NCBI GenBank assembly: GCA_028681275.1
Contig: JAQUIV010000008.1
Coordinates: 1-36,100, forward strand
DNA length: 36,100 nt
Reading direction: 5' to 3'
DNA from: Aliarcobacter sp.
GTDB lineage: Bacteria > Campylobacterota > Campylobacteria > Campylobacterales > Arcobacteraceae
Part shown: positions 21,712 to 31,550 of the stretch, one piece after another
Position numbering within the stretch: the first letter of the stretch is position 1
Layout of the letters: each line of letters opens with the position of its first letter
Notes under the pieces: generated by a model
Database searches by the model: none
The model's input: only the letters and a program-made list of their open reading frames with translations
Told to the model about the DNA's origin: nothing
Program-made: the position numbers and the translations under genes

Positions 21712-24238
21712 GTAAAACTATTTCAAACAACGCTCCTTTATGGATTTTATCCATAAAGGTAAACTCTGTATTTACAGCTTTAATTGTTCCTCTTAAGTGT
21801 TTTTCAACCAGAAGTTTACTCATATAAAGTCCAATTCCTGTTCCATTAAATTTGTGTTTTGTTGTAAAATATGGTTCAAAAATTTTGTCTATAATCTCTT
21901 CATCAATTCCACCAGCACTATCTTTTATATCAATAATAAGATTATTTTCTTTTTTGTAAACATCAATAATAATATATTTTTCATCCCCAAGAGTTTGTTT
22001 TAATGCATCTTTTGCATTTACTAAAATATTCATTAGAACTTGAATTAACTCATTTTCTAAAGATAATATTTTTATATCCTCAACATTTTTTATTAAATTA
22101 ATTCTATGTTGCATAAAAGTATTACCCATTAATTCTATAACTTTTTCTATTGCATGGTTTGTACTTAGTTGAGCTGGTGTTTTATTTTTGCTAAAAAAGC
22201 TTCTAAAATCATCAATTGTATTTGATAAATATAAAGTTGATTTTTTTATGTGATTTATTGCTTCATAAAACTCTTCATCACTTAATGTGCTAAACTCTTT
22301 TTTTATCTCCATCCCCGAAGCTGCAACACTTATTGTTGATAGTGGTTGTCTCCATTGGTGGGCAATGTTTTCTAACATTTCACCCATTGAAGCCATTCTT
22401 GATTGTTGGATTAGAATTTTATTTTTTTCTTCGTTTTTTTGAATTTCTAACTCTATTTTTTCATTTAGTTGAGCATTTAATTTTTTTAATAAATATTGTC
22501 TATAAAAAATAAAAATAATGAAAGTAAGAATAATTGAAGCTGTTAATATTTTATATATAAATGCATAATCTATCTCTTTTTGATAATTTACAGAAACCCA
22601 TTTATTTAAGATTTGTTGTTTTTGATTGGCTGTAATATCATTTATTGCTTTTTCAAAAATAGTAGTTAAAATAGGTTCATCATTTCTTGCACCTATTCCT
22701 AATTTCCAAATTTCATCAAATTTTCCAGATATTTTTAATTGACCAATATAGTTATTTTGAATGTGATAACCAACGGTTACTAAAGTATCTATAAATCCAA
22801 ATATTTGACCTTTTCTAACAAGTTCCAATCCATCATTTATATTTTCAACTTCAACAAATGTTGTTTTTGGATATTTCATTTTTAAGATTTCACCAAAAGA
22901 GTAACCTTTTACAATACCTAGTTTTTTATCTTCAACTTGTTGAAAATTATCTATAAAAGGGGTATTTATATTTGCAGCAATTACTAATGGAATTTCTAAA
23001 TAAGGTTTTGTAAAATTCAGATATTTTTCCCTTTGAGGAGTTGTCATAACAAGTGAAAATATGTCACAAGTTCTTTTTTGCCCAAATTCTAAAGATTCAC
23101 TCCATGTTTTTGTTGGAACTAAAGTAATTGGTTTTTTGATTTTTTCTTCAAGTAATTTTATATAATCAGCTGCAATTCCAATATGTTTACCATTTTCAAT
23201 TTTCTCAAAGGGCATCCAATTTGGATCAACACACATTGTGATTTTTTCTTTTTTATTTAAGTAATTTTTTTCTTCATTTGAAAGATAAATTGTATTATCA
23301 AGATGTTGAGTATAGATTAGGTCATCAACATTAATATTGTGTTCAATTAATCCCATAACTCTGTATGTATTAATGATTAAGTTTATTCTTTCAGGAGTGA
23401 TTGTTCCTATTTTTCCATTTTTATCATAAACTAATTTTTTCATTTCATTAGCTTCAAAAATTAAACTAGCTAGAGTTTTATTTTGTGGATTGTATTTTTC
23501 ATAAATTAATTTAGCCACTTCTTCAATATTTTCAAAGGCATATTCCCATCCTTTGATAGTTGCACTATAAAAATCTTTTACAAGTTTTGGATTTTTTGAA
23601 GCAAACTCTTTTGAAGTAAAAATAATCTCTTCGTAGAAGTCAAAACCATAATCTTTTGGATTAAAAATTTTGCTTTCATAACCTTTTTCTTTTAATAAAA
23701 ATGGTTCATTTGTCGTATAAGCAAGCATTAAATCAGTTTTTTTATTTATTAAATCACTTACATCAAAAGAGTGGTCTATGATTTTAATATCATTTAAAGT
23801 AACACCTTTGCTTGTAACCATTGATTTAAAAGTTGCATATTTTTGTTGCTCTTTTGTAATCATTAAAGTTTTGTTTTTTATATCTTCAATGTAGTTTATA
23901 TTTGAATTTTTTAATGCCAATAAAATTAAAGGCGAAGATTGGAAAATAGAACCCAATAAAACAATATCTTTCCCATTTGATTTATCGGTAATTAAAGAGC
24001 TAGAACTTGTACCAAAATCTGCATTTTTATTTAAAACTTCTTCAAGAAGATTTAATGACGAATCATATTTTTTAAGTTCCACATCAAGCCCTACATCTTT
24101 GTAAAAACCTTTTTCCTTTGCCACATAAAAACCTGCAAATTCAAATTGGTCAAGCCACATAAGTTGTACAGATGTTTTTCGTAATTCTGAGGCATTTAAA
24201 AATGATAAAAATAAAATAAATAATATTAGCTTTTTAAT
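21698..24238 (-). CDS. Hybrid sensor kinase with NMT1-like and SBP3 periplasmic domains
   Basis: This reads as a membrane histidine kinase that senses small molecules in the periplasm. The order is: an SsuA/ThiY (NMT1)-like binding domain, an SBP_bac_3 amino-acid-binding-like domain (CVDPNWMPFEKIENGKHIG), a membrane helix (TASIILTFIIFIFY) and the kinase. The kinase has HisKA (ENIAHQWRQPLSTIS, His601 counted from the ATG at 24160) and HATPase (NILVNAKDAL, EPYFTTKHKFNGTGIGLYMS). Upstream of that ATG the frame stays open and encodes a signal peptide (KKLILFILFLSFLNA) whose only plausible start is ATT at 24238, seven bases after AAAAGG. An in-frame TGA lies just upstream. No cognate regulator is adjacent. 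Confidence 0.85.
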   Translation of the reverse strand: MKKLILFILFLSFLNASELRKTSVQLMWLDQFEFAGFYVAKEKGFYKDVGLDVELKKYDSSLNLLEEVLNKNADFGTSSSSLITDKSNGKDIVLLGSIFQSSPLILLALKNSNINYIEDIKNKTLMITKEQQKYATFKSMVTSKGVTLNDIKIIDHSFDVSDLINKKTDLMLAYTTNEPFLLKEKGYESKIFNPKDYGFDFYEEIIFTSKEFASKNPKLVKDFYSATIKGWEYAFENIEEVAKLIYEKYNPQNKTLASLIFEANEMKKLVYDKNGKIGTITPERINLIINTYRVMGLIEHNINVDDLIYTQHLDNTIYLSNEEKNYLNKKEKITMCVDPNWMPFEKIENGKHIGIAADYIKLLEEKIKKPITLVPTKTWSESLEFGQKRTCDIFSLVMTTPQREKYLNFTKPYLEIPLVIAANINTPFIDNFQQVEDKKLGIVKGYSFGEILKMKYPKTTFVEVENINDGLELVRKGQIFGFIDTLVTVGYHIQNNYIGQLKISGKFDEIWKLGIGARNDEPILTTIFEKAINDITANQKQQILNKWVSVNYQKEIDYAFIYKILTASIILTFIIFIFYRQYLLKKLNAQLNEKIELEIQKNEEKNKILIQQSRMASMGEMLENIAHQWRQPLSTISVAASGMEIKKEFSTLSDEEFYEAINHIKKSTLYLSNTIDDFRSFFSKNKTPAQLSTNHAIEKVIELMGNTFMQHRINLIKNVEDIKILSLENELIQVLMNILVNAKDALKQTLGDEKYIIIDVYKKENNLIIDIKDSAGGIDEEIIDKIFEPYFTTKHKFNGTGIGLYMSKLLVEKHLRGTIKAVNTEFTFMDKIHKGALFEIVLPISS

Positions 24239-24296
24239 GTTTTTACCTTTTCAGTATTTTGGACTTTGATTAACGCAATATTATAACAAACTAAGA

Positions 24297-24302
24297 TAAA
24301 AT
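24297..24302 (+). promoter_or_regulatory. Candidate -10 box for the 164-aa gene
   Basis: GATAAAAT precedes the ATG at 24329 by 27 bases, in the divergent gap with the sensor kinase. Weak evidence. Confidence 0.3.
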
Positions 24303-24328
24303 GTTGATTATTAATTTTAGGAATAAAA

Positions 24329-24823
24329 ATGTCTAAAGAAAAAACAATAAAAGATAAAGTTTTAGAGTATATTTATACTATCTCAAAACAACCAATATTA
24401 TTAAAAGATTTATTAGTAGCAAATAGACAACATAATGATGGAATGCATGTAGACCCTGCAAAACTTGGGTTTAGAATAAGATTAATTAGAGCATATCAAG
24501 TTTATATAGGAATTGTTTTAGCTATATTAGTTCCTATTTCATTATTAACTCACAAACCTTTAGCAAAAATTGACCCGCATATTTCTATTCTGGGAGCTAT
24601 GGCAATTACAGCTGCTATATTTATAGGATTTAACTTTTTTAGAGATAGAATGAGAGATACAATGACAAAAGAGCTTATTAAAAGGTCTTGGAAGTTACAT
24701 TTTCCATTTTTTTCTTATGAAGAATACTCTTCTAAAATAAATGAAATTTTTGAAAAAGCTATGAGAGAAGAAGTTTCAAAAAGAGATTTAGAAAAATATA
24801 TTTTAGAAAATCTTTCAAAATAA
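24329..24823 (+). CDS. Small two-helix membrane protein, unknown
   Basis: The 164-residue protein has a soluble head (about 1-55, with DLLVANRQHNDGMHVDPAKLGFR), two membrane helices (about 60-78 and 85-102) and a charged cytoplasmic tail (YEEYSSKINEIFEKAM). AGGAA at 24319-24323 supports the ATG. I do not recognise the family. It lies divergent from the sensor kinase and convergent with the mnmD operon, so it is probably transcribed alone. Its tail hairpin overlaps both convergent stop regions. Confidence 0.75.
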   Translation: MSKEKTIKDKVLEYIYTISKQPILLKDLLVANRQHNDGMHVDPAKLGFRIRLIRAYQVYIGIVLAILVPISLLTHKPLAKIDPHISILGAMAITAAIFIGFNFFRDRMRDTMTKELIKRSWKLHFPFFSYEEYSSKINEIFEKAMREEVSKRDLEKYILENLSK

Positions 24824-24848
24824 ATAAGTAGTTTTTAAAACTACTTAT
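24824..24848. terminator. Hairpin between two convergent genes
   Basis: A 12-base inverted repeat (ATAAGTAGTTTT/AAAACTACTTAT around one T) spans the end of the 164-aa gene and the stop of the reverse mnmD-like gene. The effective loop is a few bases wide. There is no T-run after it on the plus strand, so its terminator role is inferred. Confidence 0.5.
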
Positions 24849-25590
24849 CATGTAAAGCAACCGCTTCTTTATTCCTTTGTTTTTTTAATTCCATATCTAT
24901 ATATTTTTCAATCAACTCTTGTTTTTGTTTAAAGGCTAAAGTAATTTTTCTTTTAACTGGTCTGTTTTCATATATAAAAAATCCAGCTTCATACATAGAA
25001 AGTCGAATTGGTGTAGCAATGGCGTAGGAACTCATAATACAATCATTTTTACAAAGTTTATAAATATCATCAAAATACTCTTTTGTCCAAAGCTCAAAAT
25101 TCACATCACTTGAAAAAGCATCTTGATATATTATGTCAAAACTGTTTGGTTTTAGGCTTTTTATATAATCTCTAGCATTTCCAATAAAAACTTCTATTTT
25201 GATTTTTTCATCTTCATATTTAGAAGTTTTTGCAACTGAATTTATAATGTGTTTTATATTTTCAAACTCTTTTGGGAACTCAAAAGTTTCAAGTGAGTTT
25301 ACAAGATTTCCATCAAGTTCTGGAGAATAAAAGTTTAGTTTTACATCAAGATTATTTTGTAAAATATGATAAATAGTAGAAAAGGTGTTATATCCAATCC
25401 CAAAACAAATATCCAAAATATTAAGTTCTTTTTTGTTTTTGTGAAAGGTAAAAGCTGGAATTATATGTTTTGATAAAGCTTCATTTATAGCTCCATCATC
25501 AGGGTTGTGATAGTGTTGATTATATAGTTTTGAAAATAGGGTGTTTGAACCATCTTTTGTGGGAACTATTGAGTTAATATTATCTTGCAC
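24841..25590 (-). CDS. mnmD: MnmD-like tRNA wobble-uridine methyltransferase
   Basis: The protein (249 residues) resembles the methyltransferase half of MnmC, which completes the mnm5s2U modification of tRNA anticodons. It has ILDICFGIGYNTFST as the SAM-binding motif, YQDAFSSD followed by ELWTKEYF, and the late GFFIYENRPVKRKITLAF segment. The FAD-dependent oxidase half of full-length MnmC is absent, as in stand-alone MnmD proteins. It starts at GTG (25588-25590), three bases after the upstream stop. It is the last gene of the luxS operon. Members acting on other nucleic acids exist, so the exact substrate is inferred. Confidence 0.72.
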   Translation of the reverse strand: MQDNINSIVPTKDGSNTLFSKLYNQHYHNPDDGAINEALSKHIIPAFTFHKNKKELNILDICFGIGYNTFSTIYHILQNNLDVKLNFYSPELDGNLVNSLETFEFPKEFENIKHIINSVAKTSKYEDEKIKIEVFIGNARDYIKSLKPNSFDIIYQDAFSSDVNFELWTKEYFDDIYKLCKNDCIMSSYAIATPIRLSMYEAGFFIYENRPVKRKITLAFKQKQELIEKYIDMELKKQRNKEAVALHDK

Positions 25591-25593
25591 TTT

Positions 25594-26037
25594 TTATAGC
25601 CCATTATCCCAATGGTGCATTTTTTTTGCTGTGAAAATATAAACATCATCAAAAAGCTCAATACAATTTGGAGCTTGAAATCCAACATTTTCTAGTAAAT
25701 CTAAAAGTTCATATCTATTATCATTTGAGATTTTTTCTAGGATTATTATATTTCCTGAATTTTCTAAAGCTTTGTACATAAGTTTTAAAATTGTCTCTTG
25801 ATTTTTGCAAAAAGACAAAATATCTCCTAAAACTACATACTCAAACTCTCTAGCTGTTGCTTTTAGTTTGGCGCTTTCTTCATCTATGAAAGGAATATAT
25901 TTTATATTCCCTTCATTGTCAGCTCTGATTTCTTCTAAAGTTGAATCCACTAAACCTAAAGAGTTATCTATATGAAGAATAGAGATATTTGTATATGATG
26001 AAAATAACTCTTTAAAAAGATTAAGTTTTTGTTGCAC
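25594..26037 (-). CDS. Small methyltransferase-like protein, unknown
   Basis: This 147-residue protein resembles the second half of a SAM methyltransferase fold (EYVVLGDILSFCKNQETILKLMYKAL, NIIILEK, LLENVGFQAPNCIELF). Its first half has only ISILHIDNSLG, and the Gly-rich SAM-binding loop is missing. It may be a degenerate or non-catalytic relative. The start is GTG at 26037, with AGGA from the end of luxS upstream. It lies between luxS and mnmD in one operon, at spacings of three bases on either side. Function unknown. Confidence 0.6.
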   Translation of the reverse strand: MQQKLNLFKELFSSYTNISILHIDNSLGLVDSTLEEIRADNEGNIKYIPFIDEESAKLKATAREFEYVVLGDILSFCKNQETILKLMYKALENSGNIIILEKISNDNRYELLDLLENVGFQAPNCIELFDDVYIFTAKKMHHWDNGL

Positions 26038-26040
26038 TTT

Positions 26041-26556
26041 TTAGTTTCCTAAAGCTTTTAATTTATCTTCACAAAGATATAGTTTTTCATTTGACATAAC
26101 ACCAATTTTACAAGATAAAATATCCTTTGCAATATCTTTTGCTTCTTCTAAAGAGTGCATTGTGTAAGTTCCACATTGGTATTCATTTAATTCTGGAATA
26201 TCATTTTGAGATTGAACTTCAAGTACATCTTTCATAGCTTTTTCCCATGCAGCAGCAACTGTTTCTTCACTAGGAGTTCCAATTAAACTCATGTAAAAAC
26301 CAGTTCTACAACCCATTGGAGAAACATCGATGATTTCAACTGAATCAGAATTTAAATGATTTCTAATGAATCCAGCAAATAAATGCTCTAAAGTATGAAT
26401 ACCTTTTTCACTTAATATTTTTTTATTTGGTACACAAAATCTTAAATCAAATACTGTAATATCATCACCTTTTGGTGTTTTCATAGTTTTTGCAACTCTT
26501 ACTGCGGGTGCTGGCATGATTGTATGGTCAACTCTAAAACTGTCTAATAATGGCAT
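26041..26556 (-). CDS. luxS: S-ribosylhomocysteinase (autoinducer-2 synthase)
   Basis: LuxS cleaves S-ribosylhomocysteine to homocysteine and the AI-2 precursor DPD. It recycles the product of SAM-dependent methylations and can give a quorum signal. At 171 residues it is of normal length. The metal ligands are in [10 protein letters not shown] (two His) and QCGTYTM (Cys); the catalytic Cys is in MGCRTGFYM. It opens with [20 protein letters not shown], the family start, behind AAGGAA. It leads an operon with two methyltransferase-like genes and provides homocysteine to metH elsewhere in the window. Confidence 0.98.
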
Positions 26557-26595
26557 AATAAATTCCTTATAATTTGCTTTTTTTAATAAGTTTGG

Positions 26596-26601
26596 ATTGT
26601 A
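26596..26601 (-). promoter_or_regulatory. Candidate extended -10 promoter for luxS
   Basis: Reverse-strand TTTTGCTACAAT matches the extended -10 pattern of Campylobacterota promoters, 40 bases before the luxS ATG. It faces away from the Septu-like island. Confidence 0.55.
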
Positions 26602-26703
26602 GCAAAAGTTTATTAAATGGGTGGTAATCTGAAAATATAAAAAGGGATTTTGAATAATCTTTTAACTATGATTAGTAATAAAATAATAGCAAAAGAGTTT
26701 TTC

Positions 26704-28496
26704 ATGGAATTGGTTTATTTGTGGGTAAAGAATTATAAGAATATACATGAACAAGGGTTTAATTTTTCGCCAAATTATGATGTAAAATTTACACCAGTTT
26801 ATGAAGATGAAAAGTTATCAAAAAAAAGTGAGTTGAAAATAACTCCAAAAGAAAATCCTTTGAAAGATTTTTTTGGTAAAGATATTAATGTTACAGCTAT
26901 TGTTGGAGAGAATGGGAGTGGAAAGAGCTCTATTCTCATTTTAATCTTGGAATTACTTTTCAAAAAATATAAAGGTGAATCTTGTGATAATGAAATATTT
27001 TTATTAGTTAAAGATGATACTATTAATCAAATAACACAAAATAAAAATACAGAATCTATTTTAGAACATCATGGGATAGATTCATTAAATGAAGTGAATT
27101 TTTATAATTTATACATTAATTTAAGTCGAGATATCTTCCCCTATAAGAAATTTTCAGAAGAATGTTTTCATAAAAATGATAGTTATAAAACACCTATATT
27201 AATCGAACCTGGTAAAATGAATAGTAGTCTTGAATATTATTTAATAAATAAAAGAATTACAAAGTTTTATTCAATTTTAATTGACAATAAAATTAATAGC
27301 TTCTTTAATCCAAACAAAATGAAAATATCTTATTCAAATTATAAAACAATTTATAATGAGAAAATCTTTAGTAAATATGAATCTTTTTGTGAAAATAATT
27401 ATGTAAAAGACAAACATGATAAGTTGATGAGACAAAACAATATTTCATCAATAGAAAATAAAATTAAAGAATTCTATGAAAATAATGATATAAAGGGATT
27501 AAGTAAGTTATATATAATTATAAAAATACTAACTATTGACAAAATAAAATTGATATAGAATTACACGATGAGTTATATACTACATTAGAAAATATATATT
27601 TTGGAAATGTAAGCGTAGATGAAATTATTAGTATATTGGACAATAAACTTTATTCTTTAAATACTGTGAAGTTAGATTCGTATGAAACAATTAAAATATA
27701 TGATTCAATTTTATTCTTAAAAAGTATAAATGAACAAAATACTTATGAATTTATAGTCGATAAAATTAAAAATAATGAAATGCTTGATATTAAAAGTATG
27801 CCTTTGGAAATTGAATCTTTACCCTCTTGGTTAAACATAAAATTTTTTGATGAAGAAAAATCTTATGAATCTTTAAGTACAGGTGAAAAAAGTATTTTTA
27901 TATTATTAATTACAATTTTATATCAAGTAACAAATATAAATGATACCGTATATAAAACTATCCATATTATTTTGGATGAAATTGAGATGAATTTACATCC
28001 TGAGTGGCAAAAGAAATTCTTTAGAGAGTTTTTAAACTCATTGAATAAAGTTAGGAAAAAGAAAATTTGTTTAACATTAATAACACATTCTCCATTTATC
28101 CTTTCAGATATGCCAAAACAAAATGTAATTTTTTTAAAAAAAGATGAAAAAACTGGAAGGTGTATTAATTCGACAGACAAAATAGATTTAAATCCTTTTG
28201 GTGCAAATATTCATACTCTTTTATCTCATGGTTTTTTTATGAAAGATGGGCTTATGGGTGAGTTCGCAAAAAGTAAAATATCTAAAATATTGAATTTTCT
28301 TAATGGAAAGAATAAATTTATTGATACTCCAATAAATCAAATAAAACCTACTATTGAAATAATTGGAGAAGATTTTTTAAGAGAAAAACTTTTAAAAATG
28401 TATGATGAAAAATTTAAAATAAAATCAAAAGATGATGAAATTAAAGAATTAAAAGCTGAAATAGAAAGACTTAAAAATGCTAAAAATAATATTTGA
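26704..28496 (+). pseudogene. ptuA: PtuA-like Septu ATPase, frameshifted
   Basis: Two consecutive frames encode one ABC/AAA-type ATPase of the Septu defence kind. The first (26704-27558, ATG behind AAAGAG; a TTG at 26650 is possible) starts MELVYLWVKNYKNIHEQGFN and has Walker A IVGENGSGKSS (about residues 67-76). The second, open from 27540 to 28496, has signature YESLSTGEKS, Walker B IHIILDEIEMNLHPEW and the His switch LITHSP. A -1 shift between 27540 and 27558 would join them to about 600 residues. With the next gene it forms a PtuA/PtuB-type pair. A one-base deletion, an assembly error or recoding are all possible. ptuA is named by domain pairing, not by search. Confidence 0.8.
27540..27558 (+). 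other. Frameshift site in the ptuA-like gene
   Basis: The first frame ends with TAG at 27556-27558; the second frame is open from just after TGA at 27537-27539. The overlap is 19 bases and contains AAAATAAAA. Insertion of one base here joins the frames. There is no X-XXY-YYZ slippery heptamer and no long homopolymer, so an ordinary deletion or a sequencing error is the simplest reading. Confidence 0.8.
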
Positions 28497-29400
28497 TAAA
28501 GAACTTTTTGATTTACATATTGAAGAAATATCAAAATCAATAACAAAGCTGATATCAAAAAAATTAAAATCAAAATTATGGTTTTATGAAAAAGAATGTT
28601 TGGTTTATGTTAAAGATAATTTAAAAAGTATTTTACAAGCAGATAATAATCAAATGAAAAAATATATAGAACATTTTAAAAATCATTTTCCAAAAGCCAT
28701 TGGTGATTTTAATACTGAAGAAAAAAAATGGAAGAGACTATATAAAATTTTACGAAAAGATATTTTTGAAAAAGAGTATAATAATTGGTCTTCTCGAACT
28801 AAGTACGGGGCATATACTTTTGTAAAAAAACTTGATTTAAAAACTTGTCCATATTGCAATAGGAATTATACTTTCATTGTGGATAAGACTGGAAACTTAA
28901 GACCAGAACTAGACCATTTCTATCCAAAATCAATATATCCATTTTTAGCTATGAGTTTTTATAATCTAATCCCAAGTTGTCCTATTTGTAATCATACTAA
29001 AAGTAGTAAAATAAAGGAAAATCTAATTAATCCTTATGATATAAAAGATGATGATTTTAAATTTACTTATAAACCAATTGATATTTCATTTTCTGAAGTT
29101 GAGAGTAAGAAATATAATATGGATAGTTTTGAAATAGAGTTTAAAAGGAAAAATGAAAACATAGATATTTTTAAATTAGATGAGTTATATAAACAACACA
29201 AAGATATAGTTGTAGATTTACTTATGAAAAAAGCTTATTATCCAAAATCATATGTAGAAGAATTAGAAAAAAGTTTTGGGTTTACAAAAGATGAAATATA
29301 TAGATATTTATTAAACAATTACAAAAAAGAAGAAGATTTACATAAACGCCCACTATCAAAACTAATAAAAGACATAAGCGAAGAGTTAGATTTGGTATGA
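28477..29400 (+). CDS. ptuB: PtuB-like HNH endonuclease (Septu partner)
   Basis: The 307-residue protein has an HNH nuclease core with zinc-binding Cys pairs: TCPYCNRNYTF (Cys124, Cys127), the acidic-His pair in PELDHFYPKS (Asp146, His147), then FYNLIPSCPICNHTKSS (Asn163, Cys168, Cys171, His173). This is the TIGR02646/PtuB layout found in Septu systems. A helical domain of about 115 residues precedes the core. It overlaps the ATPase frame by 20 bases, a sign of translational coupling, and has no strong ribosome binding site of its own. It would cut DNA or RNA when licensed by the ATPase. The nuclease frame itself is intact although its partner is broken. Confidence 0.85.
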   Translation: MLKIIFDKELFDLHIEEISKSITKLISKKLKSKLWFYEKECLVYVKDNLKSILQADNNQMKKYIEHFKNHFPKAIGDFNTEEKKWKRLYKILRKDIFEKEYNNWSSRTKYGAYTFVKKLDLKTCPYCNRNYTFIVDKTGNLRPELDHFYPKSIYPFLAMSFYNLIPSCPICNHTKSSKIKENLINPYDIKDDDFKFTYKPIDISFSEVESKKYNMDSFEIEFKRKNENIDIFKLDELYKQHKDIVVDLLMKKAYYPKSYVEELEKSFGFTKDEIYRYLLNNYKKEEDLHKRPLSKLIKDISEELDLV

Positions 29401-29424
29401 ATTTAATTCATACCAAGATTTTTT
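29392..29424 (+). terminator. Terminator built into the ptuB stop codon
   Basis: A perfect 10-base stem (TTGGTATGAA/TTCATACCAA, loop TTTAA) covers the last codons and TGA of the nuclease gene and is followed by GATTTTTTC. It lies inside the 3' end of the convergent 118-aa gene (stop at 29403). Confidence 0.82.
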
Positions 29425-29759
29425 CTAACCATTGCTTTAAAAGCTTTCATGTGTTCCCTCAACATATTTGGGATAATCTCTTCTTTGCACGCATGAACGA
29501 TATTTGCAAATTCTGGTTTTGAGTAGATTGTATTTCTATCTCTTGCTAAAACTATTAGTTTATTTACATCATCATCTAAATTTATATCCGCTCTATCGCA
29601 GATTGCATCGTAAACATTAAAAAAAACTTCCCTATCATGCGCGGTCATTTGACAACTATCATCAAGCATTTTAAGTGCTAGTTTTGAAGCATAATCAATC
29701 TCTATTGGTTCAAAATTATGAGTTTTTGCCCAATCATAAGCTTTTTTAAAATAATTCAT
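29403..29759 (-). CDS. Hypothetical protein (118 aa)
   Basis: A small soluble protein with no signal or membrane segment and no motif I recognise. It is mostly helical (MNYFKKAYDWAKTHNFEP, FFNVYDAICDRADINLDDDVNKL, LREHMKAFKAMVRKNLGMN). Three Cys and several His and Asp are scattered without a clear site. The ATG has the spacing of a TCTCC-complement (GGAGA) ribosome binding site. It follows the 187-aa gene by nine bases, so they are one operon. Its 3' codons contain the terminator of the converging Septu-like operon. Confidence 0.7.
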   Translation of the reverse strand: MNYFKKAYDWAKTHNFEPIEIDYASKLALKMLDDSCQMTAHDREVFFNVYDAICDRADINLDDDVNKLIVLARDRNTIYSKPEFANIVHACKEEIIPNMLREHMKAFKAMVRKNLGMN

Positions 29760-29768
29760 TTTTTCTCC

Positions 29769-30332
29769 TTAATCCATATATGGAATGTCTAAATTTGCAT
29801 CTCTATCGGTTGCACTAAAATCAAAATCGCTATTTATAGGAAGTTTTGATAGGTTTTTTTCTATTACTTTTATTTGTAAGAGATGATAGTTATTGTTTGA
29901 AATATTTTTTTCTATTTCATTTTTATAAAATCCCAAAATTATTGGGTGAAGTCTCTCTTGGTTTTTTATCAAATCATTTAAAAATAGACTTAATTGTGTT
30001 ATGTCAAATTCATCGATTTTTTGAAGTTTTCGCAAGAGATTTCTAACAAACTGTTTTGGTTGATAATTTTTACTTAAATCCAAAAGTTTTGAAGCTGCAA
30101 ATATATCAGCTTCTTGGGCTGAATAATTGTATAAATATCTAAAATGGTCACATACTATTTCTATATATTTAGGATAATACTTCAAAACAAAAACCAACTC
30201 TTTTAAATCTCCATCAATTAAGACTTGAAATAGGGTTGCCGTTCTTTTTTCTATTTTATCCCAATGTGCGCCATCTTCTTTGAACTCACCAAAAAAACGC
30301 TCGTAATTTTCTAATTTATATTTATCTTCCAT
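29769..30332 (-). CDS. Hypothetical protein (187 aa)
   Basis: A soluble, helix-rich protein (YERFFGEFKEDGAHWDKIEK, LVFVLKYYPKYIEIVCDHFRYLYNYSAQ, QFVRNLLRKLQKIDEFD) ending in an acidic tail (SATDRDANLDIPYMD). No known domain is seen. It is the first gene of a two-gene reverse operon with the 118-aa gene, divergent from the Mla-type operon. Conserved pairs such as this in Arcobacter-like genomes are often of unknown function; I make no functional claim. Confidence 0.7.
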   Translation of the reverse strand: MEDKYKLENYERFFGEFKEDGAHWDKIEKRTATLFQVLIDGDLKELVFVLKYYPKYIEIVCDHFRYLYNYSAQEADIFAASKLLDLSKNYQPKQFVRNLLRKLQKIDEFDITQLSLFLNDLIKNQERLHPIILGFYKNEIEKNISNNNYHLLQIKVIEKNLSKLPINSDFDFSATDRDANLDIPYMD

Positions 30333-30440: not shown

Positions 30441-31550
30441 ATGGCATATAATTTTCAATTAAAAAAATTAGACAATAACACCTTTGAACTTTTATTATTT
30501 GATATTTGGAAAAAAGAGAATCTAAATGAAAATATCAAAGCTTTAGAAAATGAGGATATTTCAAAAAACTCAAAACTAATAGTAGATTTTCAAAACCTAA
30601 AAGAGTGTGATTCAACTGCTATTATCTATTTTATTTCATTTTTCAAAGGTTTTAAAAAAGAGAATTTAACACTTAAAAATTTGAATATACATGAAGAGAT
30701 TTATAGATTTTATGAAAAACATTATCAAGACAATAATTTAGAAAAAAAAGAGGAAAAGAAGTTTTTAGAAACTATTGGGAAAAAGTTTTATGAAGGCTAC
30801 AAAGAGACAATAAGTTTTATAAATTTTGTTGGGAAAGTTTTTTATTATTTCATTTATTCACTTTTTAATCCAAAAAAAATAAGATTTAAAGCGATGTTAA
30901 AATACATTGATACTTCTGCTGTGAATGCACTTTTTATTGTGGGAATAACTTCATTTTTAGTAGGAGTTGTAATTGCATATCAAGGGGCTGTTCAACTTGA
31001 AAAATTTGGAGCAAATATTTTTATAGTTGAGATGATTTGTATAACTATGTTTAGAGAAATAGCTCCACTTGTTACAGCTATTGTAATTGCTGGACGAAGT
31101 TCTAGTTCATACACAGCAGAGATTGGAGCTATGAAAATAACAGATGAAATAGATGCCATGAGAACTATGGATTTTGAGCCAACTCTATTTTTGGTATTAC
31201 CAAGAATTTTTGCTTTGGTTATTGCTTTGCCTTTATTAGTATTTTTTGCGGATATTATAGGAATATTTGGTGGAATGGTAATAGCTTATATTAATTTAGA
31301 TGTTACCTTTACAGAGTTTATAGCAAGAATGGGGCAAGAAGTTCCAGTAAAACATCTTTTAATTGGAGTTTTTAAATCTATATTTTTTGGAATTGCAATT
31401 GCACTTATTGGATGTTATAGAGGATTTCAAGTACAAAATAACACTACAAGTATAGGAAAATACACAACAATAAGTGTGGTAAATGCTATTTTTGTGGTTA
31501 TTGCTTTAAATGCTATATTTTCAGTAATTCTTACGGAGATAAAAATATAA
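30441..31550 (+). CDS. mlaE: MlaE-like permease with N-terminal STAS domain
   Basis: This is the inner-membrane permease of a lipid-transporting ABC system. The first 95 residues form a STAS-like domain (KLIVDFQNLKECDSTAIIYFISFF), the role played by a separate MlaB in E. coli. After a linker (about 100-130) comes the MlaE domain with about five helices, containing GVVIAYQGAVQLEKFGA, MFREIAPLVTAIVIAGR, EIGAMKITDEIDAMRTM and LPRIFALVIALPLL. At 369 residues the extra length is the fused domain. The stop overlaps the next ATG by one base (TAATG), so the operon is tightly coupled. Confidence 0.92.
   Translation: MAYNFQLKKLDNNTFELLLFDIWKKENLNENIKALENEDISKNSKLIVDFQNLKECDSTAIIYFISFFKGFKKENLTLKNLNIHEEIYRFYEKHYQDNNLEKKEEKKFLETIGKKFYEGYKETISFINFVGKVFYYFIYSLFNPKKIRFKAMLKYIDTSAVNALFIVGITSFLVGVVIAYQGAVQLEKFGANIFIVEMICITMFREIAPLVTAIVIAGRSSSSYTAEIGAMKITDEIDAMRTMDFEPTLFLVLPRIFALVIALPLLVFFADIIGIFGGMVIAYINLDVTFTEFIARMGQEVPVKHLLIGVFKSIFFGIAIALIGCYRGFQVQNNTTSIGKYTTISVVNAIFVVIALNAIFSVILTEIKI

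Follow-up and report, generated by a model that had tools for sequence, protein, structure and literature searches.

In Septu, the Walker residues of PtuA and the HNH residues of PtuB are both required for defence, and the system acts by abortive infection with cleavage of tRNA-Tyr (PMC13096335). The PtuAB proteins of retron-Eco7 deplete tRNA-Tyr, and another PtuAB has been reported to target DNA (PMC11555353). PDC-M62 is a candidate system of PADLOC, treated as unpublished in the one paper found that names it, a survey in which it made up 203 of the 244 duplicate calls with DefenseFinder 'Septu' (PMC11811056). The openly licensed PMC papers that we found contain neither a defence assay for PDC-M62 nor a description of the exchangeable ATPase segment discussed below or of the recurrent luxS site, although preprints or subscription journals could describe the segment.

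Here we analyse a Septu-like locus in a 36,100-nucleotide stretch of Aliarcobacter sp. DNA (the window; contig JAQUIV010000008.1, positions 1 to 36,100 of the forward strand), which belongs to a draft genome of 1.84 Mb in 157 contigs that is 77% complete. We favour, with a probability of roughly 0.55, the interpretation that the locus is a PDC-M62 Septu-like pair at a recurrent luxS-mlaE site, with an exchangeable, trigger-sensing cassette inside its ATPase. The features of the locus are collected in Table 1.

Table 1. Features of the M62 locus and its borders, in window coordinates
Feature	Position	Strand	Remarks
luxS	26041..26556	-	left border of variable site; NCBIfam/Pfam
M62A leader, probable promoter and ribosome-binding site	26660..26703	+	near-identical across several luxS-site alleles
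M62A constant N-end, MELVYLWV to Walker A	26704..26928	+	family conservation; still vertical with G025 up to 26927
M62A variable middle (exchangeable cassette)	26929..27869	+	piecewise blastp
Frame break within cassette	27540..27558	+	N-half stop 27556-27558; C-half open from 27540
M62A C-end: signature, Walker B, THSPF, GANIHTLLSHGFFMKDGLMGEFAK block (28200-28271)	27870..28496	+	
M62B HNH nuclease, 307 aa, intact	28477..29400	+	PADLOC PDC-M62B match and conservation
Terminator-like hairpin, between convergent M62B and orf118	29391..29417	+	hairpin search: 1 found vs 0.4 expected
orf118	29403..29759	-	patchy neighbour; in 9/31 genus genomes
orf187	29769..30332	-	patchy neighbour
mlaE-like permease gene	30441..31550	+	right border of variable site

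The PDC-M62 pair and its broken ATPase

The sequence-only reading of this region had named the two proteins PtuA and PtuB of a stand-alone Septu system. The motifs on which it relied are all present, namely Walker A (GENGSGKS, codons 26905-26928), the LSTGEK signature (from 27870), Walker B (ILDEIE, from 27969) and the His switch (THSPF, around 28083) in the ATPase, and the CxxC pairs around Asp-His in the nuclease, which follow the order CPYC ... DH ... CPIC of an HNH protein. Conserved residues of M62B are C124, C127, D146, H147, N163, C168, C171 and N172, with conservation of 98-100% across the family set for those of the CxxC/DH/CxxC motifs. The 20-base overlap of the ATPase C-half with M62B (28477-28496), the unit's own terminator, in the form of a terminator-like hairpin, and the position between luxS and the orf118/orf187 pair were likewise borne out. 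M62A probably starts at ATG 26704, where MELVYLWV is conserved, rather than at TTG 26650. No part of M62A is better conserved than the GANIHTLLSHGFFMKDGLMGEFAK block, which follows the switch motif and has a mean identity of 93% for which the ATPase motifs do not account; this block may contact the nuclease.

The family name itself stood only in part. The pair is Septu-like, but the best PADLOC profiles are PDC-M62A for the ATPase (PDLC04737; 1.4e-74 for the C-half and 2.6e-24 for the N-half) and PDC-M62B for the adjacent nuclease gene (PDLC04743; 2.1e-71), with scores of 250 and 239 bits, whereas the PtuA and PtuB profiles come second at 53.5 and 47.9 bits (7e-15 and 3e-13), some 200 bits weaker. 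Gene order and overlap equal those of PDC-M62. The NCBIfam models fall far under their cut-offs, with the PtuA equivalog reaching 56 bits against a cut-off of 500. The likeness to Septu lies in the ABC ATPase with Walker A, signature and Walker B (here spread over two frames), the downstream HNH partner gene, the lack of a retron and the nearest structures. By sequence, the solved structures closest to the ATPase are retron Ec78 PtuA and Septu PtuA, with its C-end best matched by the PtuAB effectors of Retron I-A (Ec78/Eco7, Ec83), and the closest to the nuclease is a TIGR02646 chain of a retron I-A complex. AlphaFold models of two intact ATPases (L158 and L161) had mean pLDDT values of 57 and 59, too poor for a comparison of the middle folds, and served only to rank nearest structures, among which retron I-A and Septu PtuA again came first. 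If the pair were an ordinary Septu (PtuAB), it would share this domain order, overlap and set of fold relatives, and DefenseFinder assigns most PDC-M62 loci to Septu, so that 'Septu' in a broad sense is defensible. As a strict family call it is disfavoured, and we give it little credence in view of the margin of about 200 bits and of the PtuA of retron-Eco7 and the sister system PDC-M01, neither of which shows a swappable middle (see below). On profile evidence, we thus regard the pair as a Septu-like ABC-ATPase/HNH system of the PDC-M62 family.

Unlike Retron I-A, the locus has no reverse transcriptase or retron RNA beside PtuAB-like genes, in keeping with the earlier preference for a stand-alone system over a retron-Septu. 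Rfam gave no match in the window, in which no tRNA was found either, and a search of the genome found a single reverse transcriptase, an RVT_1 match on another contig (G000 contig C132:18931-19476, E 6e-20, 323-aa frame); a retron was therefore rejected. A phage-borne system was also rejected, as a search with the nuclease found no relatives in viral contigs and the 33 candidates for the ATPase include one viral contig.

The presumed two-gene pair is real, but it comprises three ORFs, because the ATPase is not one open frame. Its N-half (26704, or TTG 26650, to 27558) and its C-half (27540-28496) lie in different frames and, joined for comparison only, align end to end with intact relatives with no missing block (38% identity to the ATPase of G059 over 648 columns). 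About 50 relatives of the family have a single intact ATPase ORF, which makes the break a lesion or an assembly error and not the normal state of the family. A deliberate split, by programmed frameshifting or into two working subunits, would fit the intact motifs on both sides of the break; it is extremely unlikely and the frameshift was rejected, given the one-ORF relatives, the different break positions in the broken alleles of G006 and G026 and the lack of a canonical slippery heptamer at the break site. Unless sequencing error produced the break, the window copy has probably lost its activity. Broken alleles at the luxS site are those of the window, L085 (G006), L104 (G026) and L097 (G019), and defective alleles seem commoner there than elsewhere (4/16 vs 1/42, Fisher p 0.018), in a comparison of small numbers that includes drafts and possible assembly errors.

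The luxS-mlaE site

We compared the luxS regions of 29 other genomes of the genus, two of which (G017 and G024) have contigs that end before the site, leaving 28 informative genomes with the window included. M62 lies between luxS and the mla operon in 14 of these 28, and it occupies the same site in two genomes of other genera (G062 and G092). Nine genus genomes have an empty site in which luxS directly adjoins mlaE, among them G022 and G023, whose luxS genes are the most similar to that of the window; similarity to the empty site ends at 26628 and resumes at about 30485. In three genomes of other genera (G031, G053 and G067), luxS adjoins orf118 without M62, the arrangement that the sequence-only reading had proposed as a sign of insertion, and with 9 of 28 genus sites empty the pair is not a core component of all relatives.

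In the nuclease tree, the alleles of the luxS site are scattered, and well-supported branches force at least 8 label changes. The window nuclease groups with alleles that other genera carry at other sites (G057, G056, G078, G079, G090 and G102; 66-72% identity), and it is only 37% identical to that of G025, the closest occupied relative by its flanks. The luxS-mlaE gap is thus a hotspot with polyphyletic M62 nuclease alleles. The idea of an inserted module holds in so far as empty sites and M62-free luxS-orf118 junctions exist, but it was too simple, since the site is recurrent and the interior of the locus is exchanged in place.

The gap holds further genes. In G001 (L080) and G020 (L098, to which locus L223 of an Aliarcobacter MAG is identical), M62A and M62B are separated by two genes, one for a 105-aa nucleotidyltransferase-like (MNT) protein and the other for a 117-aa HepT/HEPN-like protein. 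L097 of G019 has only the first of these genes, and from their sequences the two are probably a toxin-antitoxin pair inside the defence operon. A four-gene ABC export cassette (two permeases, one ATPase and one membrane-fusion-like protein) is found in the gap of G004, G020, G021 and G029, with or without M62. Leaders of M62 loci elsewhere differ from the luxS-site leader: a second type (CTTTTAAATAATATTCTTGTAATATATTT... 5' of the start codon) occurs in L030, L031, L032, L035, L046, L047, L120, L121, L124, L125 and L147, and a third in L036, L043, L134, L136 and L140. Judging by these sequences, each type of leader may stay with its site as the coding part behind it is swapped.

The variable middle of M62A

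In the family alignment, the first 80 and the last ~220 residues of M62A are conserved (mean identity of 76-93% in the best blocks), and most of the middle is at 5-20%; the variable stretch between Walker A and the signature comprises roughly 200-380 residues. As multiple alignment of the middles is unreliable, we divided each M62A into three pieces, with the cuts at Walker A and the signature, and compared these pairwise for 96 non-redundant systems, with an E threshold of 1e-3 for similarity of the middle. Nuclease identity is 70% or more in 67 pairs; the N-end and C-end match in every one of them, and in 61 the middles show no similarity at this threshold. Across the 96 systems, similarity of the C-end follows that of the nuclease (rho 0.54), and similarity of the middle does not (rho 0.016, p 0.28). 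For example, middles that are 98% identical occur with nucleases that are 35% identical, and the window middle is 25-32% identical to those of G059, G091, G055, G004 and G036, whose nucleases are 34-38% identical to that of the window. With duplicates counted, 104 systems fall into 44 middle clusters, most of which are unrelated in profile-profile comparison; clusters 3 and 5 are clearly related (97%) and a few others reach 70-84%, so truly unrelated cassettes number fewer than 44. The cassettes of ten relatives gave no Pfam or PHROG match above chance.

The controls behaved differently. Because no HNH neighbour was recognised in our scan of Campylobacterota PtuA-like loci, PDC-M01, a candidate system with an ATPase and HNH pair from the same phylum, served instead, and all 7 of its pairs with nuclease identities of 45-83% retain a detectable middle; two further pairs in that set, of low-scoring loci that look M62-like, have no detectable middle. 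Retron-Eco7 PtuAB, a weaker control with a narrower identity range, aligns over its full length in 15 of 15 E. coli records at ~95-99% identity. An exchangeable middle was thus not seen for PtuA here. A related M62 pair in E. coli strain H240 has only 9 copies in E. coli, all near-identical.

At the DNA level, 1,492 pairs share a 5' match, which in 435 is lost within the N-end and does not reach Walker A. In the remaining 1,057 it passes the N-end; 1,008 of these end between -12 and +24 nt from the last codon of Walker A, and just 4 continue through the cassette. Since a match can also end simply because a conserved motif gives way to unconserved sequence, the telling pairs are those with closely similar flanks. 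The cleanest is that of two Sulfurospirillaceae MAGs (L184 and L211), in which 4.2 kb upstream at 81% identity are followed by a different cassette and then by 4.6 kb at 82%, the cassette being the only difference over ~9.5 kb. The window and G025 share 87.8% DNA identity over 24012-26927, up to Walker A, then weak similarity at Walker B (27970, 70%) and, beginning at 29332 within the final codons of the nuclease gene, strong similarity that extends into the flank (88%); a match that ends at Walker A and is back at the nuclease end indicates that the interior of the window locus was replaced in place. The 3' boundary is more diffuse and falls anywhere between ~200 nt upstream of Walker B and several hundred nt downstream.

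Synonymous divergence points in the same direction. The alleles of G003 and G010, whose nucleases are 35% identical, have dS values of 0.28 in the N-end, 0.04 in the middle and 0.57 in the C-end, and those of G001 and G019 have 0.41, 0.00 and 0.07; with dS in the middle far below that in the N-end in both pairs, the middles have moved recently and left their N-ends behind. In addition, omega is 0.24-0.40 in four pairs sharing a cassette type, hence the cassettes are functional protein and not decaying sequence. A middle that was never swapped and merely diverges very fast is a very improbable explanation: it includes part of the ATPase lobe and so is likely to keep some common fold, but rapid divergence would not account for DNA similarity lost at Walker A inside 81-88% identical flanks, for 98% identical middles alongside 35% identical nucleases or for the dS contrast between N-end and middle. 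These comparisons show that the middle of M62A is an exchangeable cassette swapped by recombination. The Flavobacterium alleles L193, L199 and L207 diverged without swapping and have middles 52-72% identical.

Possible roles of the cassette

By analogy with the PtuAB proteins of Septu and retron-Eco7, M62AB is most likely an ATP-gated nuclease. In the mechanism that we favour, the ABC ATPase M62A and the HNH nuclease M62B would form a PtuAB-like complex in which the variable lobe, from Walker A to the signature, recognises a phage-related trigger and the ATPase state then permits the nuclease to act, halting the infected cell. Swaps by recombination would have their 5' breakpoints in the conserved leader and N-end and their 3' breakpoints in the ATPase C-end or the nuclease end, such that either the cassette or the whole interior could be exchanged in place. 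We believe that a lobe under purifying selection that is nonetheless exchanged wholesale most simply recognises something about the invader. The diffuse 3' boundary, the non-swapping Flavobacterium alleles and the broken window copy speak against this explanation.

Type I restriction specificity subunits (HsdS) carry a variable specificity domain in a constant frame, and this domain is moved by recombination. M62A resembles them in the recombinational exchange of a variable part within a constant frame, but the proteins are not homologous, and the variable part of M62A is embedded in an ATPase, where it separates Walker A from the signature. The cassette could, by this parallel, set the nucleic-acid target, as do the target recognition domains of type I restriction, so that a swap would change what is cut and not what triggers cutting; that PtuAB proteins have been reported with different targets, tRNA-Tyr or DNA (PMC11555353), would agree with such a role. 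This is a live rival, but an unlikely one in our view, since the nuclease sequence is independent of the cassette, and a domain that sets the target might be expected to match the nuclease it serves. Also live, though improbable in our view, is a lobe with one common function in which the need to escape inhibitors encoded by phages drives the diversity. The many types kept, with purifying selection inside them, would be compatible with it, but a wholesale swap that reaches the P-loop seems a large step if escape were the only cause, and no inhibitor is known.

Returning to the cassette as a trigger sensor, a fuller version, to which we give somewhat less than even odds, is that PDC-M62 is an immune receptor with interchangeable sensor lobes joined at a fixed Walker A boundary, through which neighbouring species hold the same site with different specificities. 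For PDC-M62, profile-based annotation lumps into one family proteins whose recognition cores may differ completely. If the cassettes are sensors, PDC-M62 would provide dozens of naturally occurring middle types within one frame, and the trigger of Septu-type ATPases would become testable by simple chimeras. Moreover, the family would then represent a second route, besides restriction specificity subunits, by which immune specificity is reshuffled through recombination.
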